Source: Tragulus kanchil
Lineage: Eukaryota > Chordata > Mammalia > Artiodactyla > Tragulidae
Reading direction: 5' to 3'
Length of the DNA: 64,000 nt
Assembly (NCBI GenBank): GCA_022376925.1
Contig: JAIOJX010000025.1
Span: forward strand, 138,219,301 to 138,283,300
Shown: in pieces, positions 1,522 through 62,740 of the stretch
Layout: the number at the start of each line of letters is the position of its first letter
Position numbering within the stretch: the first letter of the stretch is position 1
Notes under the pieces: generated by a model
Told to the model about the DNA's origin: nothing
What the model saw: the letters and a program-made list of their open reading frames with translations, nothing else
The model's database searches: none
Position numbers and translations under genes: made by a program

Positions 1522-1647
1522 TTCCATAGTTACATGAGAAGCATAAGGCTACAAGCTCTTAATCCATAAATATAAACATTAAGTGATTTTGTGGAAATGA
1601 AAAAACTGAGTAGTAACACCCTTTGAGCTGTTGGATGCCTTGTATGT

Positions 1648-1850
1648 TTGTGTGCTCAGTGGCTCATTTGTGTTCGACCCTTCATGACCCCGTGGACTGT
1701 AGCCTGTCAGGCTCCTCTGGCCATGGGGTTTCCCAGGCAAGAATACTGGAGTGGCTGCCATTTCTTTCTTAGCCAGGGATTCAACATGCGCCTCCTGCCT
1801 CTTCTGCATTGGCAGGTGGATTCTTGACCACCGAACTACCTGGGAAGCCC
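1648..1850 (-). mobile_element. Bov-tA/Bov-A type SINE
   Basis: Read on the minus strand, this has the ruminant tRNA-derived head (ending cctgggaagccc on the plus strand) and a Bov-A body with the family signatures caggcaagaatactggagtg and ccaggctcctct-like spacing. It is moderately diverged from the family pattern, so it is not a recent insertion. A second copy at 2792-2994 exists only because of duplication 1. Confidence 0.85.
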
Positions 1851-2791
1851 ATTGAGTGCGTTAGTCACACGTTATCAGAAAGAAGCCAAAAAGAGCAAGG
1901 ATATGTAACAGCTTCTATACTGAATTTGCATGTGGAAAGGTGATTCAATATAGAATGTCAAAAATGAAACACAGGAATAGCTTCAATCTGATTTTAAAAT
2001 CTTCACCAACTCTTCCAGATGTTTGTAGAATTTCTCAAATTGTATACTTTGAAACTTGTGTGGAAGTTTTAATAAAATTACTAAAGAAACAGGTACTATT
2101 TTTAAAATGTGTCTTTGATGAAAAGATACAGAAGCTGCATCTCTGAAACACTTTGGGAAGTATTTAAATTGGAAATAAGTACTCAGCTCACTAGGGACCG
2201 GTTGTTAGAACAGAATTTAGAGCAGATACCAGCTGCTAAGAAAAAGTATTCTCAGTAACAAGAAAAGCGAGAAAAGTTGGGGGGTGGGGAAAGAGGCTTT
2301 TTACCAAGGAGGGTAGGAATGCCCCACCCAGAGGTCTGCTGGCCTGTCCACTCCCCTGGGGAGGGATTGGCTGGCCCTAGTGGGAGAGAAGGGGAGCAGG
2401 TAGGGGTGAGGGTGGGCAATGGAAAAACTCAGGTATTGTTTAAATCTGAGATAAGCCCGGATTCAATACATAATCTGTGAAAAGTCTTAGATTAAATTGT
2501 TAACCCACAGTTTCTCCCCTTGGGAGACAAAAAGGAAAGCCCATGGCCCCAAGACCACTGTTGCTGGAAGAGGAAGCATGAGGACCCCATTGTCCAGGCC
2601 GTTTGTGGTTTCAGGCCAGGGCACAGCTGATGTACTTAGGGAAGCCTGTGCTGAATTCTAAATAATTCCATAGTTACATGAGAAGCATAAGGCTACAAGC
2701 TCTTAATCCATAAATATAAACATTAAGTGATTTTGTGGAAATGAAAAAACTGAGTAGTAACACCCTTTGAGCTGTTGGATGCCTTGTATGT

Positions 2792-2994
2792 TTGTGTGCT
2801 CAGTGGCTCATTTGTGTTCGACCCTTCATGACCCCGTGGACTGTAGCCTGTCAGGCTCCTCTGGCCATGGGGTTTCCCAGGCAAGAATACTGGAGTGGCT
2901 GCCATTTCTTTCTTAGCCAGGGATTCAACATGCGCCTCCTGCCTCTTCTGCATTGGCAGGTGGATTCTTGACCACCGAACTACCTGGGAAGCCC
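2792..2994 (-). mobile_element. Bov-tA/Bov-A type SINE (duplicate copy)
   Basis: Same element as 1648-1850, displaced by 1144 bases with no difference noticed. The flanks are duplicated too, so this is not an independent insertion. Confidence 0.85.
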
Positions 2995-3666
2995 ATTGAG
3001 TGCGTTAGTCACACGTTATCAGAAAGAAGCCAAAAAGAGCAAGGATATGTAACAGCTTCTATACTGAATTTGCATGTGGAAAGGTGATTCAATATAGAAT
3101 GTCAAAAATGAAACACAGGAATAGCTTCAATCTGATTTTAAAATCTTCACCAACTCTTCCAGATGTTTGTAGAATTTCTCAAATTGTATACTTTGAAACT
3201 TGTGTGGAAGTTTTAATAAAATTACTAAAGAAACAGGTACTATTTTTAAAATGTGTCTTTGATGAAAAGATACAGAAGCTGCATCTCTGAAACACTTTGG
3301 GAAGTATTTAAATTGGAAATAAGTACTCAGCTCACTAGGGACCGGTTGTTAGAACAGAATTTAGAGCAGATACCAGCTGCTAAGAAAAAGTATTCTCAGT
3401 AACAAGAAAAGCGAGAAAAGTTGGGGGGTGGGGAAAGAGGCTTTTTACCAAGGAGGGTAGGAATGCCCCACCCAGAGGTCTGCTGGCCTGTCCACTCCCC
3501 TGGGGAGGGATTGGCTGGCCCTAGTGGGAGAGAAGGGGAGCAGGTAGGGGTGAGGGTGGGCAATGGAAAAACTCAGGTATTGTTTAAATCTGAGATAAGC
3601 CGGATTCAATACATAATCTGTGAAAAGTCTTATATTAAATTGTTAACCCACAGTTTCTCCCCTTGG

Positions 3667-5861
3667 GAGACAAAAAGGAAAGCCCATGGCCCCAAGACCA
3701 CTGTTGCTGGAAGAGGAAGCATGAGGACCCCATTGTCCAGGCCGTTTGTGGTTTCAGGCCAGGGCACAGCTGATGTACTTAGGGAAGCCTGTGCTGAATT
3801 CAGCCGAGGTGGTCAGACACCACTGATGAGTTCCAGCTGCCCTCAATGACTGCATTCCGGCTTTTCTTCATTCTGAAGAAAATAAACGCAGAGTGACTTT
3901 TTCTCTACCATAGTCTCACTGTGACAGATGTCGTGGGCTTTCTTGGCAGTCTTTAGGATGCAGCTGCCTGGGCATGTGTGCGATGGGTTAACTGTTTTCT
4001 AGAGTTAATGAGGTCAGGGTCACAGGTTCATTTCCTGGGAAGCCCAGTTCATTTTGCTTTGTTCTCTGATCTCATATTGTGCTCTTAACCCAACCCAGCC
4101 ATCTGGCAAAGGCAGATCATTGATCACAAAGGGACTCCTAAGCAGGACGGTGTAGGAGGAGCAGCACGCATCTTCCTCAGTGGATGCTGCGTAATTAGAG
4201 ACAATGCCACAAACGCACATTTGTGTTTCCTGGCCTTGTCTGAATATGTGGTCGCTAGCATGGTGGTCACGTGATTTTCTTTGTCATATCAGTTAACTGC
4301 CATTTTAACAGTTGTTTTTTCTAGTTCTGAGGTTTTAGAAGTCTCATGTTCAGCATTTATATCTTGTCTCGAATGTTCTTAGCTTCCTTGTAGGTTTGTA
4401 GGACGTTGGCTCTGTTAGTGAGAAAAGGGTAAAGCTGGTGGAGAACCTACTCAGTTGTTGACAGATGCAACCCCATTTGAGTTAAAAAATAAAAATAGTT
4501 AAAAAAAGCAAAGCACCATTCTGAACGAGAATGAATAGAGTGAGAATATCCAGGGAAGCGCTTTGTAGTATTTCTAAGCACATTTCGTCTATGAATCTCT
4601 TATTCCCTTTATTAAAGTTACTTCTGGTGTCTAGTGAAATACCTGAGCTCATCTAGACCAGTGCTGTCTGGCACAGTCCCTGGTCCCGTGGGCTAGTGAA
4701 GCATTTGAGACGTGGCCTGTCCAGACTGGGAGCAGCCCTCAGGATCAGATATGCACCAGGTTTGCGAGACAAAAAGGAAAGCCCACGGCCCCAAGACCAC
4801 TGTTGCTGGAAGAGGAAGCATGAGGACCCCATTGTCCAGGCCGTTTGTGGTTTCAGGCCAGGGCACAGCTGATGTACTTAGGGAAGCCTGTGCTGAATTC
4901 AGCCGAGGTGGTCAGACACCACTGATGAGTTCCAGCTGCCCTCAATGACTGCATTCCGGCTTTTCTTCATTCTGAAGAAAATAAACGCAGAGTGACTTTT
5001 CTCTACCATAGTCTCACTGTGACAGATGTCGTGGGCTTTCTTGGCAGTCTTTAGGATGCAGCTGCCTGGGCATGTGTGCGATGGGTTAACTGTTTTCTAG
5101 AGTTAATGAGGTCAGGGTCACAGGTTCATTTCCTGGGAAGCCCAGTTCATTTTGCTTTGTTCTCTGATCTCATATTGTGCTCTTAACCCAACCCAGCCAT
5201 CTGGCAAAGGCAGATCATTGATCACAAAGGGACTCCTAAGCAGGACGGTGTAGGAGGAGCAGCACGCATCTTCCTCAGTGGATGCTGCGTAATTAGAGAC
5301 AATGCCACAAACGCACATTTGTGTTTCCTGGCCTTGTCTGAATATGTGGTCGCTAGCATGGTGGTCACGTGATTTTCTTTGTCATATCAGTTAACTGCCA
5401 TTTTAACAGTTGTTTTTTCTAGTTCTGAGGTTTTAGAAGTCTCATGTTCAGCATTTATATCTTGTCTCGAATGTTCTTAGCTTCCTTGTAGGTTTGTAGG
5501 ACGTTGGCTCTGTTAGTGAGAAAAGGGTAAAGCTGGTGGAGAACCTACTCAGTTGTTGACAGATGCAACCCCATTTGAGTTAAAAAATAAAAATAGTTAA
5601 AAAAAGCAAAGCACCATTCTGAACGAGAATGAATAGAGTGAGAATATCCAGGGAAGCGCTTTGTAGTATTTCTAAGCACATTTCGTCTATGAATCTCTTA
5701 TTCCCTTTATTAAAGTTACTTCTGGTGTCTAGTGAAATACCTGAGCTCATCTAGACCAGTGCTGTCTGGCACAGTCCCTGGTCCCGTGGGCTAGTGAAGC
5801 ATTTGAGACGTGGCCTGTCCAGACTGGGAGCAGCCCTCAGGATCAGATATGCACCAGGTTT
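3667..5861 (+). repeat. Direct tandem duplication 2 (offset 1099)
   Basis: The upstream copy is 3667-4763 and the downstream copy 4766-5861, with a 2-base linker. The downstream copy has one substitution near 4786 and one base missing from a T run near 4998. Its first 135 bases also occur at 2524-2658 because duplication 1 overlaps it, so that piece is present three times (2524, 3667, 4766). Confidence 0.95.
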
Positions 5862-6809: not shown

Positions 6810-7036
6810 GAAAACTTGAAGAAATTGACATATGCCCACCACTGTATATAAAATAGATAACTAGTAAGGACCTACTGTATAACACAGGAAGCTCTACTCA
6901 ATACTCTGTAATGGCCTCTAGGGGAAAAGAATCTTAAAAGAGTGGATGTATGTATTTGTCTAATAGAGTCACTTTGCTGGTACACCTGAAACTCATGAAA
7001 CATTATGAATCAGTATACTCCAATAAGATTTTTTTA
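6810..7036 (+). mobile_element. L1 LINE 3' end fragment
   Basis: The sequence follows the artiodactyl L1 3' untranslated pattern in order: gacctactgtataacacagg, then a tctactcaatactctgtaat block, then tcactttgctggtacacctg, and finally tactccaataagattttttt with an A-rich end. It is a 5'-truncated, non-coding fragment. Its last third is repeated at 7975-8093 by duplication 3. Confidence 0.8.
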
Positions 7037-7487
7037 AAAAGGAAGAAAACCTCGGGACCAAATTTGTTAGTTTTAGTTGAGATTTTTATTTTCCTAATCA
7101 ACCTAGGCAGCTCAGGTTAACATCTTAAAGATGTTTACATTCTGAGGCTTCAGATCTATCCCCACCCCCAGCCCACTTGAGTTGTAGGTCGCTGTCGGTT
7201 ATCAGTGATGACTTGTGAACAGCAGCTTGGTCAGGCTCTGAAACACTTCAGTTACTCCCGTCGTCCATCTGAGCTGGTGCAACGAGCTGACTCTCTCGTA
7301 AGGCTGGAGTTTGCAAGAAGAGGGGCAGTTATTTCCAGAAGGAGGGTTTATAATAGTAATTCCAGATTATTATTTTTCTCTGTTTTTTGTCTATTGCAAA
7401 CAACCCAAGATTGGGGGAGGTACCGAGAATCAAATCTAGACAGTGATCTTTGAATGGTTACCTTGGTGGAGGACAAAAATAAATAGC

Positions 7488-7802
7488 GGGCTTCCCTGGT
7501 GGTCCAGTGGGTAGGGACACCACCTTGCAGTGCAAGGGGCGCCGGTTCGATCCCTGGCCTGGGAAGGTCCCACGTGCCGCGGAACGGCTGGACCGATGTG
7601 TCCAATTACCGAGCCAGAGCTCTGGAGCGCATGCACCCAGAGCCGGTGCTCTGTGACAACAGAGGCCACCGCGATGGGAGGCTCACACGGGCCAAAGAAC
7701 AAAGATGGATGAAAACTAGACAAATGAAAGACTAATAGTAGTGGCCCGCCCGCCCCTCTCCCTCCCCATCCCACTCCCCCCCAAAACAACAAAAAAATAA
7801 AT
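7488..7802 (+). mobile_element. CHR-2-like tRNA-derived SINE, long-tail form
   Basis: It begins gggcttccctgg and contains a polymerase III A box (tggtccagtgg) and B box (ggttcgatccc) in the tRNA-derived head. The body has the cacgtgccgcgga motif shared with CHR-2 elements, and the tail contains aatagtagtggcccgcccg, a C-rich stretch and (aaat)n. An 11-base target-site duplication, aaataaatagc, is seen at 7477-7487 and 7803-7813. It is a non-coding retroposon that depends on a LINE for mobility. Confidence 0.9.
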
Positions 7803-8541
7803 AAATAAATAGCTCTGTCCTTCAGGATGACATGTAATGAAAAGTACCATGACCATCCACATTCTGAGCAGCCTGAGTCATGGTAAACTCAGCTTATCTC
7901 ATGGCAGCAGATGCATGCCAAGTGCTGTGCACCATGGGCTGGCCACCGCAGACTAACCGCCGTGAACCTAGCATGAAAAGAATCTTAAAAGGGGGTTGGA
8001 TGTATGTATTTGTCTAATAGAGTCACTTTGCTGGTACACCTGAAACTCATGAAACATTATGAATCAGTATACTCCAATAAGATTTTTTTAAAAAGGAAGA
8101 AAACCTCGGGACCAAATTTGTTAGTTTTAGTTGAGATTTTTATTTTCCTAATCAACCTAGGCAGCTCAGGTTAACATCTTAAAGATGTTTACATTCTGAG
8201 GCTTCAGATCTATCCCCACCCCCAGCCCACTTGAGTTGTAGGTCGCTGTCGGTTATCAGTGATGACTTGTGAACAGCAGCTTGGTCAGGCTCTGAAACAC
8301 TTCAGTTACTCCCGTCGTCCATCTGAGCTGGTGCAACGAGCTGACTCTCTTCGTAAGGCTGGAGTTTGCAAGAAGAGGGGCAGTTATTTCCAGAAGGAGG
8401 GTTTATAATAGTAATTCCAGATTATTATTTTTCTCTGTTTTTTGTCTATTGCAAACAACCCAAGATTGGGGGAGGTACCGAGAATCAAATCTAGACAGTG
8501 ATCTTTGAATGGTTACCTTGGTGGAGGACAAAAATAAATAG

Positions 8542-8856
8542 CGGGCTTCCCTGGTGGTCCAGTGGGTAAGGACACCGCCTTGCAGTGCAAGGGGCGCCGG
8601 TTCGTTTCCTGGCCTGGGAAGGTCCCACGTGCCGCGGAACGGCTGGACCGATGTGTCCAATGACCGAGCCAGAGCTCTGGAGCGCATGCGCCCAGAGCCG
8701 GTGCTCTGTGACAACAGAGGCCACCTTGATGGGAGGCCCACACGGGCCAAAGAACAAAGATGGATGAAAACTAGACAAATGAAAGACCAATAGAAGTGGC
8801 CCGCCCGCCCCTCTCCCTCCCCATCCCACTCCCCCCCAAAACAACAAAAAAATAAA
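8542..8856 (+). mobile_element. CHR-2-like SINE (duplicate copy with substitutions)
   Basis: Positional duplicate of 7488-7802 within duplication 3. It differs at about ten positions, for example gttcgtttcc instead of the normal B box, aatgaccgag for aattaccgag, and ccttgat for ccgcgat. Several differences move toward other family members and others away. The flanks are nearly identical, so the excess inside the SINE suggests consensus errors from reads of other copies. Confidence 0.85.
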
Positions 8857-9280
8857 TAAATAAATAGCTCTGTCCTTCAGGATGACATGTAATGAAAAGT
8901 ACCATGACCATCCACATTCTGAGCAGCCTGAGTCATGGTAAACTCAGCTTATCTCATGGCAGCAGATGCATGCCAAGTGCTGTGCACCATGGGCTGGCCA
9001 CCGCAGACTAACCGCCGTGAACCTAGCATGAAAAGACCAAAGGCTGGGGGAGTACAGGTCACTTGAATGAGAACCTCTGTTGCAGTTTCTAGATTGAGAG
9101 AAGAGTGTAGCATTTTTACATTGCCACAGATGAATGAACGCATTATGATTTATGTTCTACAAGTCACTTGTTGACTTCATGTGTCATATTTGATGTGTCA
9201 TGTCCCATTTCTAGCAGTAATGGAGTTTTAAAAATTTGGGTCAATGGGACAGGCATTTGGGCTGCCAGGAGGCTTGTTGT

Positions 9281-11461
9281 CGTGTTGGGAGTCATACTGG
9301 ACGTGGAAGGGTAGCACGTGGCCCCTGTATTCCTCCTCCTTTCCCTGACCCAGCTGTTCATACCACGCACTGTGGAGATGCTAGTGAATATAAAAATGAA
9401 GCATTCGGTCTAGGGAAGAAGAAAGACAAGAATTTAAAATGTGCCATGAGAGGAGATCCCAGCTCTGTGGGGACTCAGGAAGGGTGACTCTTCTGGTGAA
9501 GGAGGATAGAATGACGAAAAATAAGGGGGTGGCTTCCAGCAGAAGTGATAGTGGAGTGGGGTGCTGAAAGAGGGGCGGAATTTTGACAGGTGCAGAGCGG
9601 GTGGAAGGGTGTTGCAGGGATCGGGAATGGAATGAGCAAAGACATGGCAAGCATGAGGCCATGCCATGGAGATGGTGGGAATATTCAGGCATGGACGGAA
9701 TGTCAGGAGACAAGAGGAGAGGAGGGCGAGAGGAGTGAATCAGGCAACATTTGGAGAGATTTGAAAAGCCAAAGCGCGCTGACATTTTGTAGGCCATGGG
9801 AGCTATCAGAACAGGGAGTGGCATAATTGCATCTACTTTGGAAGAATGACTCGGAGTTAAGCTTGGTTCTAAGGCCAACTTTCCTCTAATTAGCCTAGTG
9901 ACCACTGGCGAGCCACTTGACTCCTCTGGGCCTCAGATTATATCATGTATAAAACAAAAGGGTGGAGCAGGAGTTATCCCGTCAAAGAGTAAACAAAGGC
10001 AGTGCTTCCAAGGGCCTGGTCTGTGCCAGGTGCTGCTGCTGCGGCTGGAACATGAGAGCAAACATACAGCCAGGGCCCCTGCACTGCGGACGATCTTCAG
10101 GTGCGAGAGGGGGACAAGAAACAGTACACAAATGTGGATAGAACACAGTGTCAGGTTGTGATAAGTGTGAAAAGGAAGGTTGTGCTGAGTGAGTGGAGTG
10201 AGAAGTTTCTAGACAGAGAAACCTAGAGAACTTTGAATGAAGTGGAAGAGGCCATGGGACTATGTGGGATCTCTTCCAGAGCTCAAATCATAAGTATAAT
10301 TAAATGAAAAGCTATAGCTCTTTTTGTAAAGAGTTTCTAAATAGATAGTTCGTTCTTACCAGAGCTTCAAATGCTCGTGTTGGGAGTCATACTGGACGTG
10401 GGGAAGGGTAGCACGTGGCCCCTGTATTCCTCCTCCTTTCCCTGACCCAGCTGTTCATACCACGCACTGTGGAGATGCTAGTGAATATAAAAATGAAGCA
10501 TTCGGTCTAGGGAAGAAGAAAGACAAGAATTTAAAATGTGCCATGAGAGGAGATCCCAGCTCTGTGGGGACTCAGGAAGGGTGACTCTTCTGGTGAAGGA
10601 GGATAGAATGACGAAAAATAAGGGGGTGGCTTCCAGCAGAAGTGATAGTGGAGTGGGGTGCTGAAAGAGGGGCGGAATTTTGACAGGTGCAGAGCGGGTG
10701 GAAGGGTGTTGCAGGGATCGGGAATGGAATGAGCAAAGACATGGCAAGCATGAGGCCATGCCATGGAGATGGTGGGAATATTCAGGCATGGACGGAATGT
10801 CAGGAGACAAGAGGAGAGGAGGGCGAGAGGAGTGAATCAGGCAACATTTGGAGAGATTTGAAAAGCCAAAGCGCGCTGACATTTTGTAGGCCATGGGGAG
10901 CTATCAGAACAGGGAGTGGCATAATTGCATCTACTTTGGAAGAATGACTCGGAGTTAAGCTTGGTTCTAAGGCCAACTTTCCTCTAATTAGCCTAGTGAC
11001 CACTGGCGAGCCACTTGACTCCTCTGGGCCTCAGATTATATCATGTATAAAACAAAAGGGTGGAGCAGGAGTTATCCCGTCAAAGAGTAAACAAAGGCAG
11101 TGCTTCCAAGGGCCTGGTCTGTGCCAGGTGCTGCTGCTGCGGCTGGAACATGAGAGCAAACATACAGCCAGGGCCCCTGCACTGCGGACGATCTTCAGGT
11201 GCGAGAGGGGGACAAGAAACAGTACACAAATGTGGATAGAACACAGTGTCAGGTTGTGATAAGTGTGAAAAGGAAGGTTGTGCTGAGTGAGTGGAGTGAG
11301 AAGTTTCTAGACAGAGAAACCTAGAGAACTTTGAATGAAGTGGAAGAGGCCATGGGACTATGTGGGATCTCTTCCAGAGCTCAAATCATAAGTATAATTA
11401 AATGAAAAGCTATAGCTCTTTAATATTGATTAAAGAGTTTCTAAATAGATAGTGTTCTTAC
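9281..11461 (+). repeat. Direct tandem duplication 4 (offset 1095-1098)
   Basis: The upstream copy is 9281-10359 and the downstream copy 10376-11461. The downstream copy has two extra g near 10401 and one extra g near 10900. The 3' end of the upstream copy is degraded: 10321-10359 lacks a block of about nine bases present at 11422-11430, and the last bases are scrambled before the junction. Confidence 0.95.
9893..9962 (+). repeat. MIR SINE fragment
   Basis: The order gtgaccactggcgagccactt, then gactcctctgggcctcag, then atgtataaaac matches the middle of the MIR consensus (the ggcaagtcactt, cctcagttt and tgtaaaa blocks). MIR is an ancient mammalian SINE. The same fragment is at 10991-11060 through duplication 4. 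Confidence 0.65.
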
Positions 11462-11602: not shown

Positions 11603-11925
11603 GGGCTTCCCCTGGTGGTCCAGTGGGTAAGGACACCGCCTTGCAGTGCAAGGGGCGCCGGTTCGATCCCTGGCCTGGGAAGATCCCACGTGCCGCGGAG
11701 CGGCTGGACCGATGTGTCCAATTACCGAGCCGGAGCTCTGGAGCGCATGCGCCCAGAGCCGGCGCTCTGCAGCGACAGACGCCACCGCGATGGGAGGCCC
11801 ACAGGAGCCAAAGAACAAAGACGGATGAACATAGAGAAATGAAAGACCAATAGAAGTGGCCCGCCCACTCCCCTCCCTCCCCAACCCGACCCCCACCCAA
11901 AATAAATAAATAAATCTTTAAAAAA
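11603..11925 (+). mobile_element. CHR-2-like tRNA-derived SINE, long-tail form
   Basis: Full-length element with gggcttcccctgg, A box, intact B box ggttcgatccc, the cacgtgccgcgga motif, accaatagaagtggcccgcc, a C-rich stretch, (aaat)n and poly-A. The flanking repeat aaaaaatggccct appears before the element (from 11585) and after its tail (near 11929-11942), consistent with a target-site duplication. It is close to the family consensus, suggesting fairly recent insertion. Confidence 0.9.
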
Positions 11926-14745: not shown

Positions 14746-15310
14746 ACTATGCCATTTTATGTTCCTGCCACCAATGTACAGGGGTTTCAGTTTCCCCACA
14801 GCTTCACTCATGATTGATTGTTATAACAATTAATATTTCATTGTATTTATATGCCACATTTTGTTTATTTGTTCATTTGTCAGTGAAAACTTGGGTTGCT
14901 TCCATGTTTTAGCTATTATAAATGATGCTGCTATGAGCATGGATGTATAAATATCTCTTTTGAGAACCTGCTTCCAATTCTTTTGGCTATATACTCAGAA
15001 ATTATCCATTGGATCATATGGTAATTGTATTTTTAACTTTTTTGAGGAACAACCATATTGTTTTCCACTGTGGCTATACCATTTTACATTCCTACCTACA
15101 GAGAACAAGGGTTCCAATTTCCCTACATGGACGCCAGCACTTTGTCTTTTATTTCTGCATAATTGTTGTCCTGACAGGTGTAAAGTGATATTTCACTGTG
15201 GTTTTGACTTGCATTCTGCTAATGATTAGTTATGTTTAGCATCTTATTAAGTGCTTCTTGACCATTCCGTATGTTGTTTATTCGAGTCCTTTGCCCGCTT
15301 TTGAATCAGA
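14746..15310 (-). mobile_element. Old L1 LINE fragments
   Basis: Reverse-strand L1 marks include aacttgggttgcttccatgt, tataaatgatgctgctatga, ccattggatcatatggtaat and cactgtggctataccatttt, then ttgacttgcattctgctaat. The part that repeats the logic of 14150-14370 suggests two separate old fragments side by side. From 14858 on it is copied to 15943-16395 by duplication 5. Confidence 0.7.
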
Positions 15311-17012: not shown

Positions 17013-17077
17013 GGCTGGCTATAGGTCATGGGATCACAAAACATCTGAGACAACTGAGTGACTAACATGACCACAAC
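16857..17077 (+). mobile_element. Bov-tA/Bov-A SINE
   Basis: Complete version of the element also seen truncated at 15774 and again at 17914. It has head, body caacccactccattattctt, gatagaggagcctggctggc and an end with gagacaactgagtgactaac. Moderately diverged. Confidence 0.85.
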
Positions 17078-17119
17078 AAAATAAGAAGAGTTGTTCTTAG
17101 ATGCAGTTGAACCTTTATG

Positions 17120-20921: not shown

Positions 20922-20944
20922 CTATATTTCAATTATTTTAACAG

Positions 20945-47332: not shown

Positions 47333-47476
47333 TTTAAAAAATATATTTATTTATTTATTTGATTGCACCAGGTCTTAGTTGCAGCACATGGGATCTAGTT
47401 CCCTGACCAGGGTTTGAACCCCAGACCTCTGCACTGGGGGCACAGAGTCTTAGCCACTGGACCACCAGGGAAGCAC
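47333..47476 (-). mobile_element. CHR-1-type SINE (duplicate copy)
   Basis: Same as 46193-46336, displaced by 1140 bases with no difference seen. Confidence 0.8.
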
Positions 47477-48311
47477 CCTGGGCTGAAGATGTTTCTTTGT
47501 ATAACACCCCTCCCTTTCCTTATTTCTTCCCTCTATCTGTCTTATTTTCTGAATATTTAATATTTTCTTAATTGGACATGGAAAGAACTCTCAGGTAAGG
47601 TACAATATAATACTTGGGTTCTTATTTGTGATTATGACCTAGTATCTTTGTGAAAAACTGGACCAGATTTCTACAATCTCCTGTTACTTTGAAAACAGTA
47701 CTCAGTATGACATTGGCACTTGTCCTCTTGTTCTGACTTCTTGCCTTGTGGGATATTTATGATGATGTTTATAATATTGTCACCATCAGGGTCAGTTGTG
47801 CTCGGCTCCAGGACAGAATGAGGCCCTGGGCACTGAGAAATGTCTGATGAGATGACTAGAGAGGTACTATGATTTAGAAAGACAGATAAATTATCACCAT
47901 TCATTCTTAGTTGTTCATGAGTGGCCATATAGGACAGAGAGAGGTGGACCAGCAAAATAGTCTGATTGGAATGGAAAGATTTACACAGGGGTTATTACCA
48001 TGTGAATTTTCCTTGGCCATTTCAAGGTGACTTTTGATCATTACCCATAACTTCATCAAAGGTTAGGAAAATGGATTACATAGGACACTGTTTTATATAT
48101 TAGAAGAGAGACGTATTGACCTGGATTACCACTTAAGCCATGTGAAAATCTCTCGGAGCCCAGCCTCCGCTGCACGTGGTGTGACTGTCACAAAGCTTAA
48201 CAGTTTGGTTTTCTGGTCACGTGTAGGTGGGTCTGAGTGGAGAGCGGCCTTGGCCAAAAGCAAATCCCACTTCTTGGCATGGCATCTCTACAGACTTTCT
48301 CATCCTAGTGA

Positions 48312-49366: not shown

Positions 49367-51568
49367 GAGACACAGAAGAGGGCACCATGGGTCACACCCC
49401 AGACCCTCGGAGCCCTGGTCCAGCGCCGCCTCGCCTTTCCTCCTCTTCTCACTCCTGTACCTGATTTCCATGGTGATCAGGCACCGTCTGGCCACAGCAC
49501 TGTCCTGTCACAGCCCTGTGGGTTACTTCCAACTCTCTCCACGGCTGCTGGTGGTGGCAAGGTTAGTGAATTGGCCCAGCCCCCACGAATGCCATGGAGC
49601 CTGATGATGATCTTGGGGTCAGATTATGACCTTGGGGTCAGTTTGATTCCAGAACCACTCTGAACACTTCCCTTCTGCGCTCAGGTAGGCACATTTGATA
49701 AAGAAGCCTGTCCTCTGCTTTTTTCCTTCCTGTTCTCTCCGCTGCCTGGGTAATTTGCTAATAGCTCCCCCTCCTCCACAGAAATGCATGTCTCATTTTT
49801 GTTTTCTTTTGGAAGAATGACTAGTGATTTGGGGATTGATCCTTTTCATGGACTTCAGCTCTGATTTGATCCCTCTCATCATTATTATTGAAATTAGTTG
49901 TGGGTATCCGCGTCTTCCTTATGGTCTGTGCACTCTTCCAAGAGAGAGGAGTGTTTGTTCCTCGTTGAATCTCAGAGCCTCCCTCTCAGTGAACACTGAT
50001 GATAACCCTCTGTAGCTGACATTATTATACACATTCTGTGGATGAGGAAACTAAAGCTCAAAAGAAGCTAAATAAATGTCTTGCTCAGCGTCACACAGCC
50101 AGTGTAGCAGGAGAGTTGGGATTTTGTTAGTATTTATACATGCTAGTTATACATCCAGAATGAATAATTTGCAGTTGTAAATTTAAGAAATACTCACTTT
50201 GCCAAAATTTACCTGCGTTTTTGAAGCATTAGAAGGAACAGAAGGAGCAGGGGGAAGGGGAAATAGGATGAAGGCAGATAAAAAGTACCAACTGACAGTT
50301 ATAAGATAGTACATGCTAGGGGTATACTGTGTGTGTATGTTAGTCACTCAGTTGTGTCTGACTCTTTGTGATCCCGTGGATTGTAGCCTACAAGGCTCCT
50401 CTGTCCGTAGGATTCTCCAGGCAAGAATACCGGAGTGAGGTGTCGCCTTCTCCAGGGATCTTCTGGAGGGAGACACAGAAGAGGGCACCATGGGTCACAC
50501 CCCAGACCCTCGGAGCCCTGGTCCAGCGCCGTCGCCTTTCCTCCTCTTCTCACTCCTGTACCTGATTTCCATGGTGATCAGGCACCGTCTGGCCACAGCA
50601 CTGTCCTGTCACAGCCCTGTGGGTTACTTCCAACTCTCTCCACGGCTGCTGGTGGTGGCAAGGTTAGTGAATTGGCCCAGCCCCCACGAATGCCATGGAG
50701 CCTGATGATGATCTTGGGGTCAGATTATGACCTTGGGGTCAGTTTGATTCCAGAACCACTCTGAACACTTCCCTTCTGCGCTCAGGTAGGCACATTTGAT
50801 AAAGAAGCCTGTCCTCTGCTTTTTTCCTTCCTGTTCTCTCCGCTGCCTGGGTAATTTGCTAATAGCTCCCCCTCCTCCACAGAAATGCATGTCTCATTTT
50901 TGTTTTCTTTTGGAAGAATGACTAGTGATTTGGGGATTGATCCTTTTCATGGACTTCAGCTCTGATTTGATCCCTCTCATCATTATTATTGAAATTAGTT
51001 GTGGGTATCCGCGTCTTCCTTATGGTCTGTGCACTCTTCCAAGAGAGAGGAGTGTTTGTTCCTCGTTGAATCTCAGAGCCTCCCTCTCAGTGAACACTGA
51101 TGATAACCCTCTGTAGCTGACATTATTATACACATTCTGTGGATGAGGAAACTAAAGCTCAAAAGAAGCTAAATAAATGTCTTGCTCAGCGTCACACAGC
51201 CAGTGTAGCAGGAGAGTTGGGATTTTGTTAGTATTTATACATGCTAGTTATACATCCAGAATGAATAATTTGCAGTTGTAAATTTAAGAAATACTCACTT
51301 TGCCAAAATTTACCTGCGTTTTTGAAGCATTAGAAGGAACAGAAGGAGCAGGGGGAAGGGGAAATAGGATGAAGGCAGATAAAAAGTACCAACTGACAGT
51401 TATAAGATAGTACATGCTAGGGGTATACTGTGTGTGTATGTTAGTCACTCAGTTGTGTCTGACTCTTTGTGATCCCGTGGATTGTAGCCTACAAGGCTCC
51501 TCTGTCCGTAGGATTCTCCAGGCAAGAATACCGGAGTGAGGTGTCGTTTCCTTCTCCAGGGGATCTTC
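49367..51568 (+). repeat. Direct tandem duplication 17 (offset 1101-1103)
   Basis: The upstream copy is 49367-50463 and the downstream copy 50470-51568. The upstream copy ends inside a Bov SINE with small losses (tgtcgccttctccaggg versus the longer form at 51542-51561). The downstream start has cgccgtcgcc where the upstream has two more bases. Confidence 0.95.
50016..50130 (-). repeat. MIR SINE fragment
   Basis: Marks are tgtggatgaggaaactaaag, then tcttgctcagcgtcacacag and ccagtgtagcaggagagttg, the reverse of the MIR core and 5' half. Duplicated at 51117-51231. Confidence 0.7.
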
Positions 51569-51642
51569 CTGACGCAGGGATCAAACCTGAGTCTCCCACA
51601 TTGCAGGCAGATTCTTTATCGTCAGAACCACCTGGGAAGCCC
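51430..51642 (-). mobile_element. Bov-tA/Bov-A SINE
   Basis: Marks are cagttgtgtctgactctttg, caaggctcctctgtccgtag, ggcaagaataccggagtgag, agggatcaaacctgagtctc (reverse B box region) and the head end accacctgggaagcccc. The repeat ggtatact/ggatatact on the two sides suggests its target-site duplication. Other versions are 50329-50463 (cut by the junction) and 52543-52755 (complete); all are one insertion. Confidence 0.85.
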
Positions 51643-52542
51643 CAGGGATATACTGTCCAACATGATAAATATAACTAAGACTCTGTTATATGTACAAGTT
51701 AAGAGAGTAAATCCTGAGTTCTCAACATAAGGAAAAAATACCTTTTTTCTGTTTCTTTATTGTTGTATCTATATGAAATGATGAATGTTGACTAAACTTA
51801 CTGAGGAAAATATTTCATGATGTATATAAGTGAAACGCTATGCACCTTAGACAGTGCAGTATGCCAATTATATCTCAATAAAACTGAACGGGTAAAAACG
51901 AACAATGGGTTAAGTGTCAAAGTCCTTGGCCGAAGTATTGTTTTAGCCATTTTTAACCAACCTGATTCATGCCGACTTCCTTCTCCCTCTGAGCCTTTAC
52001 TCAAACCATATACTGCATGGGGAAGTGTTTCATGAGGGTTATGCAAATAGGACTTGTTACTTAGTCAGTTTTTCATTTGAATTTACATGCATTATTTTTA
52101 TTGTCTTGTGGTATTGTCCCTTAACCTCTTTACACATTAGAGATATTTTCCTTTAGTTTTGAGGAGTTCATGAATATTCTAAAGCCCTGCAAAAGTCTGG
52201 GAATACAAGCATACATGACTTGAAATGTTCCTACCTTCACGCTGAAGTAGGATTTTGTGTGCCAGCTAAACTGGGTCATTTTCAAAGTGAAAGGAGCTTG
52301 TATTGCTCCAGATACAGGGCTGCTTATCCTTGGTTCTGGGAGGCTGTAAACACGATGCTTCCCTCTCTCTCACTGTTCTGTTGCTGCTTTTGTTACCTGA
52401 GGGTTCACTTTGCAGATTTTTTTTTTCCTGAGCCCTATCACTTTTCTTGATAGAATGTCTACTGTTGAAGTGCGGCCTATGGGCCCCCCTACCTTCTTCC
52501 AGCTGCTGGGGTTGAAGTGTCCTAGGATGCTAGGGGTATACT

Positions 52543-52755
52543 GTGTGTGTATGTTAGTCACTCAGTTGTGTCTGACTCTTTGTGATCCCGTGGATTGTAG
52601 CCTACAAGGCTCCTCTGTCCGTAGGATTCTCCAGGCAAGAATACCGGAGTGAGGTGTCGTTTCCTTCTCCAGGGGATCTTCCTGACGCAGGGATCAAACC
52701 TGAGTCTCCCACATTGCAGGCAGATTCTTTATCGTCAGAACCACCTGGGAAGCCC
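52543..52755 (-). mobile_element. Bov-tA/Bov-A SINE (duplicate copy)
   Basis: Copy of 51430-51642 displaced by 1113 bases, with no difference noticed. Confidence 0.85.
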
Positions 52756-53312
52756 CAGGGATATACTGTCCAACATGATAAATATAACTAAGACTCTGTT
52801 ATATGTACAAGTTAAGAGAGTAAATCCTGAGTTCTCAACATAAGGAAAAAATACCTTTTTTCTGTTTCTTTATTGTTGTATCTATATGAAATGATGAATG
52901 TTGACTAAACTTACTGAGGAAAATATTTCATGATGTATATAAGTGAAACGCTATGCACCTTAGACAGTGCAGTATGCCAATTATATCTCAATAAAACTGA
53001 ACGGGTAAAAACGAACAATGGGTTAAGTGTCAAAGTCCTTGGCCGAAGTATTGTTTTAGCCATTTTTAACCAACCTGATTCATGCCGACTTCCTTCCCCC
53101 TCTGAGCCTTTACTCAAACCATATACTGCATGGGAAGTGTTTCATGAGGGTTATGCAAATAGGACTTGTTACTTAGTCAGTTTTTCATTTGAATTTACAT
53201 GCATTATTTTTATTGTCTTGTGGTATTGTCCCTTAACCTCTTTACACATTAGAGATATTTTCCTTTAGTTTTGAGGAGTTCATGAATATTCTAAAGCCCT
53301 GCAAAAGTCTGG

Positions 53313-55499
53313 GAATACAAGCATACATGACTTGAAATGTTCCTACCTTCACGCTGAAGTAGGATTTTGTGTGCCAGCTAAACTGGGTCATTTTCAAAGT
53401 GAAAGGAGCTTGTATTGCTCCAGATACAGGGCTGCTTATCCTTGGTTCTGGGAGGCTGTAAACACGATGCTTCCCTCTCTCTCACTGTTCTGTTGCTGCT
53501 TTTGTTACCTGAGGGTTCACTTTGCAGATTTTTTTTTTCCTGAGCCCTATCACTTTTCTTGATAGAATGTCTACTGTTGAAGTGCGGCCTATGGGCACTC
53601 CTTCCCGTAGGGAGCCTGGCTAGGGGGTGTGCAGGAGTCATTGAGACCCAGTGCTTTTGGTGAGGGTATTATAGAATTTTATGGTCTGCAACTCTGGGAA
53701 CCCAGCTGAATTGCTCCAGGTGCCTGCTTTTAAAAGAGCAAGATTTATTTCATGGGCTGATAGAGTTTCAGTCTGTCATGAATTTGTGTCAAAAACCTCT
53801 TAATGAGGAGTTTTGCATTTACTATATGTCTTCACATTAAATTTTCCTGTTAAAATAGTTTAATTTATTTCACAGAAATATCTGGAGGGTGTCTATGTGC
53901 CAGAAACTACACCTGGTGAGAGGATAGAGACTAAGATATGTTTCACTGTTCTTGAGTGGATGGCGTAACCTGAAAGGTAACTTTAAGTTGGTAGTTACAC
54001 TTAAGGTGATGAATATAGTGAATGGAGAAATGTAGGATTTGGAGGAGCTGTGATGGCCTGCGCTGGTTTGATGCCTGGCACTCTTTTTTCTAGGAATTGC
54101 CCCTTATTCCCAGCCATCCACATGGTGACTACAAGTTGAGCCAATGCGCATGTCTCAGTTGATGGTTCCAAAGGTGAGCACCTGTCACACTGAGCCCATA
54201 ACTTTTCTTCCTCAGAAACTTTGGAAATGGAGCAGAGGCAGGAAGGCCACAGAATTTCTGGGTGTCTAAACAGGAATCTGAAAGAGTGAGAGTTTTTAGG
54301 GTCCCCATAAGACCTGGATGAGGGGAGGAAGCCACAGGAAGAGAGAACGGGAGGAAGTGAATCTGACCGTCAGAAGTGTAGAGAAAGTTCTCACAGTTGG
54401 GTTGGGTTTGTGAATACAAGCATACATAAACTTGAAATGGTTCCTAACCTTCACGCTGAAGTAGGATTTTGTGTGCCAGCTAAACTGGGTCATTTTCAAA
54501 GTGAAAGGAGCTTGTATTGCTCCAGATACAGGGCTGCTTATCCTTGGTTCTGGGAGGCTGTAAACACGATGCTTCCCTCTCTCTCACTGTTCTGTTGCTG
54601 CTTTTGTTACCTGAGGGTTCACTTTGCAGATTTTTTTTTTCCTGAGCCCTATCACTTTTCTTGATAGAATGTCTACTGTTGAAGTGCGGCCTATGGGCAC
54701 TCCTTCCCGTAGGGAGCCTGGCTAGGGGGTGTGCAGGAGTCATTGAGACCCAGTGCTTTTGGTGAGGGTATTATAGAATTTTATGGTCTGCAACTCTGGG
54801 AACCCAGCTGAATTGCTCCAGGTGCCTGCTTTTAAAAGAGCAAGATTTATTTCATGGGCTGATAGAGTTTCAGTCTGTCATGAATTTGTGTCAAAAACCT
54901 CTTAATGAGGAGTTTTGCATTTACTATATGTCTTCACATTAAATTTTCCTGTTAAAATAGTTTAATTTATTTCACAGAAATATCTGGAGGGTGTCTATGT
55001 GCCAGAAACTACACCTGGTGAGAGGATAGAGACTAAGATATGTTTCACTGTTCTTGAGTGGATGGCGTAACCTGAAAGGTAACTTTAAGTTGGTAGTTAC
55101 ACTTAAGGTGATGAATATAGTGAATGGAGAAATGTAGGATTTGGAGGAGCTGTGATGGCCTGCGCTGGTTTGATGCCTGGCACTCTTTTTTCTAGGAATT
55201 GCCCCTTATTCCCAGCCATCCACATGGTGACTACAAGTTGAGCCAATGCGCATGTCTCAGTTGATGGTTCCAAAGGTGAGCACCTGTCACACTGAGCCCA
55301 TAACTTTTCTTCCTCAGAAACTTTGGAAATGGAGCAGAGGCAGGAAGGCCACAGAATTTCTGGGTGTCTAAACAGGAATCTGAAAGAGTGAGAGTTTTTA
55401 GGGTCCCCATAAGACCTGGATGAGGGGAGGAAGCCACAGGAAGAGAGAACGGGAGGAAGTGAATCTGACCGTCAGAAGTGTAGAGAAAGTTCTCACAGT
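53313..55499 (+). repeat. Direct tandem duplication 19 (offset 1099-1102)
   Basis: The upstream copy is 53313-54397 and the downstream copy 54412-55499. The downstream start has three inserted bases within 40 (cataaacttg, atggttcc, ctaacctt), and the remaining kilobase is nearly identical. The block at 52201-52484 is present three times. Confidence 0.95.
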
Positions 55500-55777
55500 G
55501 TTTGGGTGTCTGGTTAAAGTTCTTCATGAAAATCTCTACGATACATGTCCCTACTTTGCTTAAGACAGTTAGGGTTGAATCTCTGTCCGATGACACCAGA
55601 ACTGTCTTCTCTAATACAGACATGTATAGCACGGGGACCTTATGCAAACCAAGGAATCTGAGAAAGCCACGTACAACAGATTTTTTACAGTGTTATCATT
55701 GTTGGTTAGATTCCCAGAATAACATACACATGATGATCGAACTCTTAGTGTAGCAGGGATTGATTTCTGTTTCTCCT

Positions 55778-56210
55778 TAGAATGGATTCATTCATTCAAT
55801 GTATTGAAGACCCACTGTGTCCCATGATCATACCAGGCCTGGGGAAGTAACTTCCACTTTTCAGTAAACCTATTGTCCTGTGCGCTGTTCACTTCCTCTT
55901 AGGTTTTGGTTACATTATGGGTTAAGTAGATTTTGGTGGCTAGTCGGGGAAACTGACTTCTACATGAAATTGTTTCTCTGGTAAATGCATTTCCTAGTTG
56001 GTGGAAGGGGAATTTGTACCCCTTGGCTATAGCAGTTGATTAGTGCACCAAATATTTTTTTGAATACTTTCTGTGTGTCGGGCAGTGCTCCAGGCTTTAG
56101 AAACGGCGGTGAACGATGTGGAAAAGACTCTGCTGTTGTGGAGCTTCAATTTTAGTGTGGGAAGATGGGTAATAAACAGTAACAAATAAATGAACAGACA
56201 GTTTAGTTAG
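55778..56210. repeat. Possible L2-type ancient repeat fragments
   Basis: Two blocks, ttcattcattcaatgtattg near 55786 and ctttctgtgtgtcgggcagt with gtgctccaggctttag near 56068, follow the common L2-like pattern (attcattcaa, gtgccaggca, ttctaggc). The continuation tctgctgttgtggagcttca also fits. Duplicated at about 56873-57303. Confidence 0.45.
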
Positions 56211-56475
56211 CAATATCTGCCATGAAGCAAAATAAAGAGGATGTGGTGAAGGAGAGGGACTGGGCTGGGATGGAGCATGACTTTGGGGTCAGGAAGGGAA
56301 TCGCTAAAGAGGGATGTTTTCAGGTTGAGGCACCTGACCCAGCGGAAGAAGGGAACATGGTTTCTCCAGGAATTCGCCTCTCAGGCCACCAACTGTGAGG
56401 TGGAGAGCATGTGTCAGTTCTGGCCCGTAAGGAATAGTCTCTACATACGGGGGTCAGCGCGGTGTAGACCTGGGC

Positions 56476-56720
56476 TGTCCCAGTGCCATGGCCACTAGCC
56501 GCTGTTGGCTCTTGAGCACTAAATGTAGTTAGGCTGACTGAATCTGTAAGTGTAAATATGCACTGGATTCCAGAGACTTCATACGAAAAAAAAGGGTGTA
56601 GACATTTCCAATAATTTTTACATTGATGGCACAGTGAATTGATAATACTTGACATACTGGGTGTGTAAGATATGTGGGTGTGTAGGATACGGGATTAAAA
56701 CAAATTTTACTGATTTCCTT
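56476..56720 (-). repeat. Possible DNA-transposon-type fossil
   Basis: Blocks ggccactagccgctgttggc, tcttgagcactaaatgtagt and gtgtaaatatgcactggatt resemble a widespread mammalian repeat containing a tagccacatgtggctag-like core. Class and family uncertain. Duplicated at about 57569-57813. Confidence 0.35.
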
Positions 56721-57823
56721 CTACTTTTTTTCCTGTATGCAAACCAAGGAATCTGAGAAAGCCACGTACAACAGATTTTTTACAGTGTTATCATTGTTGG
56801 TTAGATTCCCAGAATAACATACACATGATGATCGAACTCTTAGTGTAGCAGGGATTGATTTCTGTTTCTCCTTAGAATGGATTCATTCATTCAATGTATT
56901 GAAGACCCACTGTGTCCCATGATCATACCAGGCCTGGGGAAGTAACTTCCACTTTTCAGTAAACCTATTGTCCTGTGCGCTGTTCACTTCCTCTTAGGTT
57001 TTGGTTACATTATGGGTTAAGTAGATTTTGGTGGCTAGTCGGGGAAACTGACTTCTACATGAAATTGTTTCTCTGGTAAATGCATTTCCTAGTTGGTGGA
57101 AGGAATTTGTACCCCTTGGCTATAGCAGTTGATTAGTGCACCAAATATTTTTTTGAATACTTTCTGTGTGTCGGGCAGTGCTCCAGGCTTTAGAAACGGC
57201 GGTGAACGATGTGGAAAAGACTCTGCTGTTGTGGAGCTTCAATTTTAGTGTGGGAAGATGGGTAATAAACAGTAACAAATAAATGAACAGACAGTTTAGT
57301 TAGCAATATCTGCCATGAAGCAAAATAAAGAGGATGTGGTGAAGGAGAGGGACTGGGCTGGGATGGAGCATGACTTTGGGGTCAGGAAGGGAATCGCTAA
57401 AGAGGGATGTTTTCAGGTTGAGGCACCTGACCCAGCGGAAGAAGGGAACATGGTTTCTCCAGGAATTCGCCTCTCAGGCCACCAACTGTGAGGTGGAGAG
57501 CATGTGTCAGTTCTGGCCCGTAAGGAATAGTCTCTACATACGGGGGTCAGCGCGGTGTAGACCTGGGCTGTCCCAGTGCCATGGCCACTAGCCGCTGTTG
57601 GCTCTTGAGCACTAAATGTAGTTAGGCTGACTGAATCTGTAAGTGTAAATATGCACTGGATTCCAGAGACTTCATACGAAAAAAAAGGGTGTAGACATTT
57701 CCAATAATTTTTACATTGATGGCACAGTGAATTGATAATACTTGACATACTGGGTGTGTAAGATATGTGGGTGTGTAGGATACGGGATTAAAACAAATTT
57801 TACTGATTTCCTTCTACTTTTTT

Positions 57824-58159
57824 TTTTTTTTTTTAAATTTATTTTTAATCCTTTTTGGAGAGAGGTGGTGGGGCGGGTTGGGTAGGGACGGGGGTGGGCA
57901 GGCCACTTCTATTGGTCTTTCATTTATCTATTTTCATCCATCTTTGTTCTTTGGCCCATGTGGGCCTCCCATCGTGGTGGCCTCTGTTGTCGCAGAGCAC
58001 CGGCTCTGGGCACATGCCCTCCAGAGCTCTGGCTCAGTAATTGGGCACATGGGTCCAGCCGCTCCGCGGTACGTGGGATTTTCCCAGGCCAGGGATCGAA
58101 CCGGCGCCCCTTGCACTATAAGGCAGTGTCCTTACCCACTGGACCACCAGGGAAGCCCT
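57824..58159 (-). mobile_element. CHR-2-like SINE, long-tail form
   Basis: Reverse-strand element: T-rich start, C/G-rich tail segment, cttctattggtctttcattt, gcgcccc near the reverse B box ggatcgaacc, and the head ggaccaccagggaagccc. The 14-base target-site duplication ccttctactttttt is perfect at 57810-57823 and 58160-58173. Confidence 0.95.
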
Positions 58160-58431: not shown

Positions 58432-58595
58432 GTTATATATATATATAAACACAAACATATATATATGTGTATATACTTATATACACATATATATATATAC
58501 ACATATATATGTGTATATATTTATATATATATATATTTTTATATATTTATTTATATATATTTATATATACACATATATATATGTATATAACTGAA
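58432..58595. repeat. Expanded AT-rich microsatellite
   Basis: About 160 bases of nearly pure A and T with embedded cacata and gtgtat units, replacing the short tatatgtata block found at this point in other L1 3' ends of the window. The sequence is largely self-complementary, so it could fold back on itself. Confidence 0.9.
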
Positions 58596-58788: not shown

Positions 58789-59046
58789 GGGCTTCCCTGG
58801 TGATCCTGTGGATAAGAACACCACCTTGCAGTGCAAGGGGCGCCGGTTCGATCCCTGGCCTGGGAAGATCCCATGTGCCGTGGAGCGGCTGGACCGATGT
58901 GTCCAATTATCAAGCTGGAGCTCTGGAGTGTGTGCGCCCAGAGCCAGCGCTCTGCAGCGAGAGAGGCAATGCGATGGGAGGTCCACACAGGCCAAGGAAC
59001 AAAGATGGATGAAAATAGATAAATGAAAGACCAGTAGAAGTGGCTA
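58789..59046 (+). mobile_element. CHR-2-like SINE, short-tail form
   Basis: Head gggcttccctggtgatcctg (A box altered), intact B box ggttcgatccc, body catgtgccgtgga, tail accagtagaagtggct followed directly by poly-A. The C-rich tail segment found in the long form is absent. No clear target-site duplication was found. Confidence 0.85.
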
Positions 59047-60308: not shown

Positions 60309-60756
60309 AAAGCTAGATTGGTTTACATACACCTTTGCTTCCAATAATTGCTTGTTTCTGTCCAGTCATTGCATCTCATGGAGCTTTCTCCTTTTTTCCT
60401 AACAAGTCATAATAATGCTTGACTCTGTTGGCTACTGCTGTCTTTTAGTTGGAAATGTTAAGCACAGAAAAATATAGAAGGAATTTATATGATGACTTTA
60501 TATATATTCATTTATGTGTATTGCACAGCTCTGTGTATATTTTTTCTATATTTAGTTAACAGAAATATCTACCAGAAACCTTGAGAATTGCATTTCTTAC
60601 ATAAAATAAATATAATTTAATTTTGTACCAATCACCAATCTATACATCCTGCGGAAAAGTAAGGAGAGTTACAGTTTATCTACATCTTTACAACCACCTA
60701 CTGTTGACAGCTCAGTTTTTGCCCATTTCATGAGTTAAAATGCTATCTCATGGGGG

Positions 60757-60866
60757 AATTCTGAGACAGTCCAGTGGTTAAGAGTTCACCTGCCAATGTA
60801 AGGGGCACAGATTTGATCCCTCGTTGCAGAGATGAGATCCCACATGCCTCTTGACCAAAAAACCAA
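60757..60866 (+). mobile_element. Old CHR-type SINE fragment
   Basis: Marks are gacagtccagtggttaagag, ggggcacagatttgatccct (altered B box) and gagatcccacatgcctcttg. Strongly diverged and truncated. Duplicated at 61915-62024. Confidence 0.65.
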
Positions 60867-61049
60867 AACATAGAAGTAATACTGTAACAAGTTCAATAAG
60901 TACTTAAAAACAAGGCTCATCTTAGAATTACTGATCTGTTGAACCTCCTTTCTGTGAATTGCTTTATCATCAGTGTTGTCCATTTTCACTTATTGTTTTT
61001 TTTCTTTACAGTTTTCAGGGACTCTGTATATTTTGGATCTTCTCTCCGT

Positions 61050-61463
61050 CTGTTCATACAGTTCATGGGGTTTTCAAGGCAAGAATACTGGAGTAGTTTG
61101 CCCTTCCCCATTCCAGTGGACCATGACTTATGTCAGAACTCTCTACCATGACCCATCGTGTATGTCTTGGCTCATAGCCTCATTGAGTTATGCAAGGCTG
61201 TGATCCATTTGATCATTTTGGTTAGCTTTCTGTGATGGTGGTTTTTGCTCTTGAAGACTGTGGGATTGTAGTCCTTGCTTCTGCTGTTTACTCTTTGATT
61301 GATGAGGATAAGAAGCTTGTGCACGCTTCCTGACTGGAGGGACTGGCTGTAGGGAAAACTGGGTCTTGCTCTTGTGGGCAGGGTCATGCAACTTTAATCC
61401 AATTATCTGCTGATGAGTAGGGCTGTGGTCCTTCCTTGTTAGTTGTTTGGCCCGAGGCGACCG
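61050..61463 (-). mobile_element. BovB LINE fragment (duplicate copy)
   Basis: Marks are ttcaaggcaagaatactgga, cagtggaccatgacttatgt, ccatgacccatcgtgtatgt, tcattgagttatgcaaggct and tttctgtgatggtggttttt, the reverse strand of a BovB region upstream of its 3' tail. Frames are broken. It is the same locus as 62209-62740, cut by the junction. Confidence 0.65.
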
Positions 61464-62208
61464 AAAAAAGCTAGATTGGTTTACATACACCTTTGCTTCC
61501 AATAATTGCTTGTTTCTGTCCAGTCATTGCATCTCATGGAGCTTTCTCCTTTTTTCCTAACAAGTCATAATAATGCTTGACTCTGTTGGCTACTGCTGTC
61601 TTTTAGTTGGAAATGTTAAGCACAGAAAAATATAGAAGGAATTTATATGATGACTTTATATATATTCATTTATGTGTATTGCACAGCTCTGTGTATATTT
61701 TTTCTATATTTAGTTAACAGAAATATCTACCAGAAACCTTGAGAATTGCATTTCTTACATAAAATAAATATAATTTAATTTTGTACCAATCACCAATCTA
61801 TACATCCTGCGGAAAAGTAAGGAGAGTTACAGTTTATCTACATCTTTACAACCACCTACTGTTGACAGCTCAGTTTTTGCCCATTTCATGAGTTAAAATG
61901 CTATCTCATGGGGGAATTCTGAGACAGTCCAGTGGTTAAGAGTTCACCTGCCAATGTAAGGGGCACAGATTTGATCCCTCGTTGCAGAGATGAGATCCCA
62001 CATGCCTCTTGACCAAAAAACCAAAACATAGAAGTAATACTGTAACAAGTTCAATAAGTACTTAAAAACAAGGCTCATCTTAGAATTACTGATCTGTTGA
62101 ACCTCCTTTCTGTGAATTGCTTTATCATCAGTGTTGTCCATTTTTCACTTATTGTTTTTTTTCTTTACAGTTTTCAGGGACTCTGTATATTTTGGATCTT
62201 CTCTCCGT

Positions 62209-62740
62209 CTGTTCATACAGTTCATGGGGTTTTCAAGGCAAGAATACTGGAGTAGTTTGCCCTTCCCCATTCCAGTGGACCATGACTTATGTCAGAACTC
62301 TCTACCATGACCCATCGTGTATGTCTTGGCTCATAGCCTCATTGAGTTATGCAAGGCTGTGATCCATTTGATCATTTTGGTTAGCTTTCTGTGATGGTGG
62401 TTTTTGCTCTTGAAGACTGTGGGATTGTAGTCCTTGCTTCTGCTGTTTACTCTTTGATTGATGAGGATAAGAAGCTTGTGCACGCTTCCTGACTGGAGGG
62501 ACTGGCTGTAGGGAAAACTGGGTCTTGCTCTTGTGGGCAGGGTCATGCAACTTTAATCCAATTATCTGCTGATGAGTAGGGCTGTGGTCCTTCCTTGTTA
62601 GTTGTTTGGCCCGAGGCGACCCAGTCCTGGAGTCTCAGGCTCTATGGTAGGGCTAACTGCGACCTCCAAAAGGATCTGTGCCAACACACACAGGACTGCA
62701 GCTGCCAGTGTCCCTGTTCGTGTCTTTTAGCTTTATTTAT
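62209..62740 (-). mobile_element. BovB LINE fragment
   Basis: The longer version of the fragment at 61050. It continues past 62621 with gagtctcaggctctatggta and gccaacacacacaggactgc, which fit the same element. Inactive, with internal stops. Confidence 0.65.

Follow-up and report, generated by a model that had tools for sequence, protein, structure and literature searches.

Twenty-one adjacent direct pairs

The window analysed here is a stretch of 64,000 nucleotides from contig JAIOJX010000025.1 of the Tragulus kanchil assembly. Self-comparison of the window by exact 20-mers identified 21 adjacent direct pairs of near-identical sequence between positions 1522 and 62621. We regard these pairs as false duplications (probability about 0.96): overlapping consensus units of a noisy long-read assembly would have been abutted without merging and later polished.

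The self-comparison covered direct, not inverted, matches of at least 60 bp seeded by exact 20-mers, and k-mers occurring more than six times were excluded. Copy lengths were 985-1155 bp and pair offsets spanned 1054-1176. In all pairs the second copy started at most 123 bases past the end of the first, and in two of them the matched runs overlapped (Table 1). The window contains no N and the joins are gapless. Copy-versus-copy identity was 99.79%, with 26 mismatches and 15 indel events (21 bases) in 22,577 aligned columns, a total in which stretches common to overlapping pairs are counted in both. Outside pair 3 only 15 mismatches were found over 20 pairs. A (TG)18 tract was of the same length in the two copies of pair 8, an argument against great age. 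Twenty-one near-exact pairs of about 1 kb are, in our judgement, not attributable to chance.

An initial annotation had listed all 21 duplications, and each of them was recovered. Its offsets equalled ours in 17 cases and differed by 1-2 bases in the other four (pairs 14, 15, 17 and 20), and its figure of about 23 kb of redundant sequence agrees with the 23.4 kb measured, or 36.6% of the window. It had also described a single size band; among direct matches no tandem match lay outside 1.05-1.18 kb, and the remainder either combined two neighbouring pairs into one composite (offsets 2137-2254) or were dispersed and 73-153 bp long. The statement that the units share no common sequence does not hold strictly: 8 of the 20 successive pairs overlap each other, by 57-292 bases, so that some stretches are present three times, and one interspersed repeat family is represented in both pair 3 and pair 14.

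Copy 1 began after the preceding join in 20 of 20 cases and copy 2 finished before the next join in 20 of 20; thus no pair contains the join of another. This is the order that a linear tiling of overlapping pieces must give. With the degraded ends described below included, the overlap had a mean of 1115 bp, a standard deviation of 32 and a range of 1051.5-1181.5. The 20 pieces between successive joins were 1,864-5,569 bp long, and the steps left after removal of the overlap 754-4,470 bp, the four smallest being 754, 772, 789 and 792. The narrow overlap length suggests a fixed software unit as its natural cause.

A biological unit behind the pairs was considered and rejected: in the 10 open reading frames scanned, of 49 listed, no Pfam family was found at an E-value of 0.01 or better.

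Degraded sequence at the joins

If overlapping pieces were left unmerged, each join should hold the poor-quality tail of the left piece and then the poor-quality head of the right piece, and this arrangement was found at most testable joins. The typical spacer consisted of an error-ridden continuation of the sequence 3' of copy 2, followed by an error-ridden version of the sequence 5' of copy 1. Two-part alignment (left-piece tail plus right-piece head) was performed at every join, and each of the 14 spacers of at least 15 bp was scored against 60 random wrong flank pairs. Eleven of the 14 outscored all 60 controls; for pair 9 the score was 92.0, against -9.0 for the best control. Degraded sequence of at least 8 bases was present on both sides at 10 of the 21 joins.

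Relative to the outer flanks, the joins lacked 102 bases, had 51 in excess and carried 50 substitutions, an indel-rich mix that would suit noisy long reads. Differing columns were concentrated near the breakpoint: 111 of 840 at a distance of 0-19 bases, 65 of 840 at 20-39, 21 of 830 at 40-59, 5 of 487 at 60-79, 5 of 284 at 80-99, 3 of 85 at 100-119 and 0 of 56 beyond, in contrast with 47 differing bases in the 22,577 columns within the copies. These columns take in 60-base anchors inside the copies, and the copy ends were defined by exact 20-mer runs, so that some mismatch directly beyond them is expected by definition. The wrong-flank control, and the diverged referees considered next, are independent of how the copy ends were set.

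Twenty-four piece ends out of 42 had an extension of at least 8 bases, and 13 of them could be judged by a further copy of the sequence, a referee, elsewhere in the window. The best referee was nearer to the outer flank than to the join at all 13 evaluable ends; at 10 of them one referee was 0 edits away from the outer flank and 3-19 away from the join. The zero-edit referees show that two pieces agree exactly where a third piece, at its end, is degraded. Independent referees, diverged members of an interspersed repeat, were present at five ends. Of the 45 comparisons that they allowed, 41 placed the referee nearer to the outer flank and 3 nearer to the join, and 1 was a tie. Every comparison favoured the outer flank at the right ends of pair 3 (3 comparisons) and pair 14 (9) and at the left ends of pair 5 (10) and pair 13 (13). 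Relatives within one family are mutually non-independent, and the unit of evidence is the five ends, not the 45 comparisons. The damage is located at the piece ends.

All 11 mismatches of pair 3 lie within the interspersed repeat at 7491-7790. The family majority was matched by copy 1 at 5 of these sites and by copy 2 at 6. In our view, ambiguous placement of polishing reads in the repeat explains this pair better than age or haplotype, because either of these would be expected to scatter differences across the whole kilobase.

Members of the repeat family occur on both strands and are 80-90% alike to the copy at 7491, from which a 300-bp query was taken; the full length of the element may exceed it. 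We presume a resemblance to a ruminant or cetartiodactyl short interspersed nuclear element. A ruminant origin is suggested by such repeat motifs; an exact scan of viral contigs for a 27-base repeat string of the window gave 0 matches. A T/G tract is not the same in the two copies of pair 14: copy 1 has eight G and copy 2 three, perhaps an unpolished low-complexity error.

The tRNA-like matches found (Rfam RF00005; ARAGORN tRNA-Gly) occupy four places, each match being counted twice because it lies inside a false pair. They may belong to interspersed repeats derived from tRNA and not be genes. As markers of the joins they were discarded, being doubled along with pairs 5/6 and 16 and not placed at joins. 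An imperfect TA dinucleotide tract of about 78 copies lies outside all 21 pairs.

Table 1. Positions of the 21 pairs, their joins and other features of the window
Feature	Span	Copy 1	Copy 2	Join after	Remarks
Pair 1	1522-3801	1522-2658	2666-3801	2658	
Pair 2	3667-5861	3667-4763	4766-5861	4765	overlaps pair 1 by about 134 bp (triple cover)
Pair 3	6943-9036	6943-7981	7997-9036	7981	15-bp spacer, best wrong-flank control not beaten; 11 mismatches
Pair 4	9305-11421	9305-10323	10402-11421	10359	78-bp degraded spacer
Pair 5	14858-17001	14858-15913	15943-17001	15928	29-bp spacer, best wrong-flank control not beaten
Pair 6	16747-18866	16747-17809	17805-18866	17809	clean join; runs overlap by 5 bases; overlaps pair 5
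Pair 7	18728-20826	18728-19746	19808-20826	19783	61-bp degraded spacer; overlaps pair 6
Pair 8	20590-22723	20590-21614	21699-22723	21668	84-bp degraded spacer; overlaps pair 7
Pair 9	22666-24758	22666-23650	23774-24758	23749	123-bp degraded spacer; overlaps pair 8
Pair 10	24466-26754	24466-25608	25612-26754	25613	nearly clean join; overlaps pair 9
Pair 11	28146-30301	28146-29185	29262-30301	29203	76-bp degraded spacer
Pair 12	33324-35571	33324-34448	34447-35571	34448	clean join; runs overlap by 2 bases
Pair 13	36409-38595	36409-37473	37531-38595	37498	57-bp degraded spacer
Pair 14	40730-42950	40730-41814	41870-42950	41856	55-bp degraded spacer
Pair 15	43217-45503	43217-44328	44393-45503	44345	64-bp degraded spacer
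Pair 16	46060-48311	46060-47171	47200-48311	47172	28-bp spacer
Pair 17	49367-51546	49367-50445	50470-51546	50465	24-bp spacer
Pair 18	51414-53596	51414-52484	52527-53596	52527	42-bp spacer, best wrong-flank control not beaten; overlaps pair 17
Pair 19	53345-55499	53345-54397	54447-55499	54408	49-bp degraded spacer; overlaps pair 18
Pair 20	55641-57824	55641-56731	56736-57824	56731	nearly clean join
Pair 21	60309-62621	60309-61462	61467-62621	61466	nearly clean join
Interspersed repeat members	7491-7790, 11610-11905, 38735-38996, 40643-40920, 41394-41687, 57867-58155, 58792-59044, 62800-63044, others				both strands; identified by similarity to the 7491 copy
tRNA-like matches	17194-17266, 18251-18323; 46259-46331, 47399-47471 (minus strand)				
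T/G tract of pair 14		41396-41408	about 42536-42541		
TA tract	58434-58589				

Origin of the pairs

Taken together, the window is best read as a series of consensus pieces produced by a noisy long-read assembly, each truly sharing about 1.1 kb of single-copy DNA with its neighbour. The software would have missed this overlap, or failed to trim it, at 21 joins, and the pieces would have been written end to end with about 1.1 kb doubled; where a piece was shorter than its two overlaps, part of the shared sequence would have been tripled. Later polishing could have driven the interiors of both copies to near identity. No true read would cross a false join, so that raw consensus errors would persist in the outermost tens of bases to the left and right of many joins. 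On this reading the second copies are almost certainly absent from the DNA of the animal, and about a third of the window would be false repetition.

The initial annotation had proposed a technical cause, overlaps of about 1.1 kb left unmerged between consecutive contigs, and the spacer scores and the referees bear this out. Its picture of contigs placed end to end stands as far as abutted overlapping pieces are concerned and can be refined: there are 20 pieces of 1.86-5.57 kb with no N between them. Each piece could be either a contig or a consensus unit of the assembler, with the joins as presumed piece boundaries.

Several results weigh against unmerged overlaps. Three of the 14 scored spacers failed to beat the best of their 60 controls (pair 3, 5.0 versus 6.0; pair 5, -0.5 versus 1.0; pair 18, -1.5 versus 0.0), and 7 of the 21 joins (pairs 1, 2, 6, 10, 12, 20 and 21) are clean or have a spacer shorter than 15 bp and fall outside the scored set. 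In 10 of the 13 referee results, the sole referee or one of several is a zero-edit third copy, which is the partner copy of a neighbouring pair and not independent of the duplications under study. At the left end of pair 17 the diverged relatives were split, 6 for the outer flank, 3 for the join and 1 tie. Published false duplications that stem from uncollapsed overlap are, in the portions of the literature used here, usually separated by a gap, unlike the joins of this window.

As to the software, a graph node of the wtdbg type, with adjacent layout units left unstitched, may tentatively be named as the leading, though unproven, suspect. In wtdbg and wtdbg2, graph nodes are 1,024 bases by default, with 256-base bins and at most 256 bases of overlap between nodes, and adjacent units are stitched in the consensus step. 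The mean overlap measured here is about 9% longer than that default; the four smallest steps are close to the difference between 1,024 and 256, which is no more than a hint. A test of step lengths for periodicity between 200 and 330 bp found none, the observed value being attained by 94% of 1,000 jittered sets; it lends this cause no support, but with 20 steps and noise that may approach the bin size the test is a weak one. Buffalo (PMC8289072) and mule deer (PMC9650288) were both assembled with the wtdbg family and then polished with long and short reads, according to the parts of these reports consulted; such use in ruminants does not identify the source of the assembly analysed here.

The main alternative within the same explanation, a sub-case that is less likely than not, is that a gap filler or scaffolder inserted long-read sequence together with some 1.1 kb of flanking sequence that the contigs already contained. 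Gap fillers commonly work with flanks of fixed length. With accurate short-read contigs only the fill side would be degraded, which disagrees with the joins degraded on both sides, but long-read-based contigs remain compatible with two-sided degradation. Incorrect gap filling has been blamed for some of the depth gaps between false duplications, in the sections of PMC9516828 drawn on here.

Heterotype (allelic) false duplication, in which two parental haplotypes are laid in tandem, is a documented class in the same source (PMC9516828), and the 11 mismatches of pair 3 could be taken in its favour. We consider it very improbable. Divergence of haplotype level was not seen in the other 20 pairs, with their 15 mismatches, nor in the overall identity; these counts of candidate haplotype-specific variants come from the assembly sequence, while the published test uses read k-mers. 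Heterozygous divergence alone would yield neither a fixed length of 1.1 kb nor degraded ends, and the mismatches of pair 3 are confined to a single repeat element.

A real tandem duplication should leave a junction that is clean or bears microhomology or a short insert, and its decay should be spread evenly. Recent in-place copying of about 1.1 kb at 21 sites within about 40 kb is extremely improbable, even though the pairs are direct, adjacent and nearly identical, like young tandem duplications, and seven of them meet in a clean or almost clean join. Many of the joins hold degraded forms of the two outer flanks, rich in indels, beside near-identical interiors, none of the 8 overlapping neighbours copies an earlier junction, as overlapping duplications sometimes should, and the length spread is very narrow.

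Unmerged overlaps make the 21 pairs matter as a warning and not as biology. Any count made on the window, whether of tandem duplications, tRNA-like elements, open reading frames or length, is inflated by about a third. A failure of this fixed size, about 1.1 kb, might run through much of a public vertebrate assembly, a possibility that we put forward with some doubt; if so, the assembly length would be inflated, and thousands of false short tandem duplications would be taken as real by duplication surveys and gene annotation. The degraded spacers allow many such joins to be recognised from the sequence itself, without reads.

Comparison with known false duplications

Homotype false duplication has been documented near contig boundaries by the Vertebrate Genomes Project, and in one published instance the cause was a bug, since fixed, in the FALCON algorithm (PMC8081667, PMC9516828; both used through part of their text, as is the literature below). 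The pairs of this window resemble it: they are near-identical tandem sequences at presumed piece boundaries, attributable to uncollapsed overlap, the copies are adjacent, direct and in strict tiling order, and sequence error at the duplicated ends was found in 11 of the 14 scored spacers, with seven joins outside the scoring. They differ from it in length: the published duplications are roughly as long as a read or corrected read, those of this window narrowly 1.1 kb, with 21 occurrences in 64 kb. No description of a fixed 1.1 kb tandem artefact was found among the literature matches listed on false duplication and assembler units, which is not proof of its absence from print.

Overlapping unmerged neighbours were described by Kelley and Salzberg as duplicated overlapping contigs (DOCs) in four genomes, a cow assembly among them (PMC2864568). 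DOCs were attributed to heterozygosity, showed 98.1% identity at the median and seldom exceeded 99.5%, and concerned separate contigs only. The pairs of this window, in contrast, are 99.79% identical, lie in continuous sequence and carry long-read-like error at their joins. What is unusual about the 21 pairs, in which we see no new biology, is their density and constancy and not their kind.
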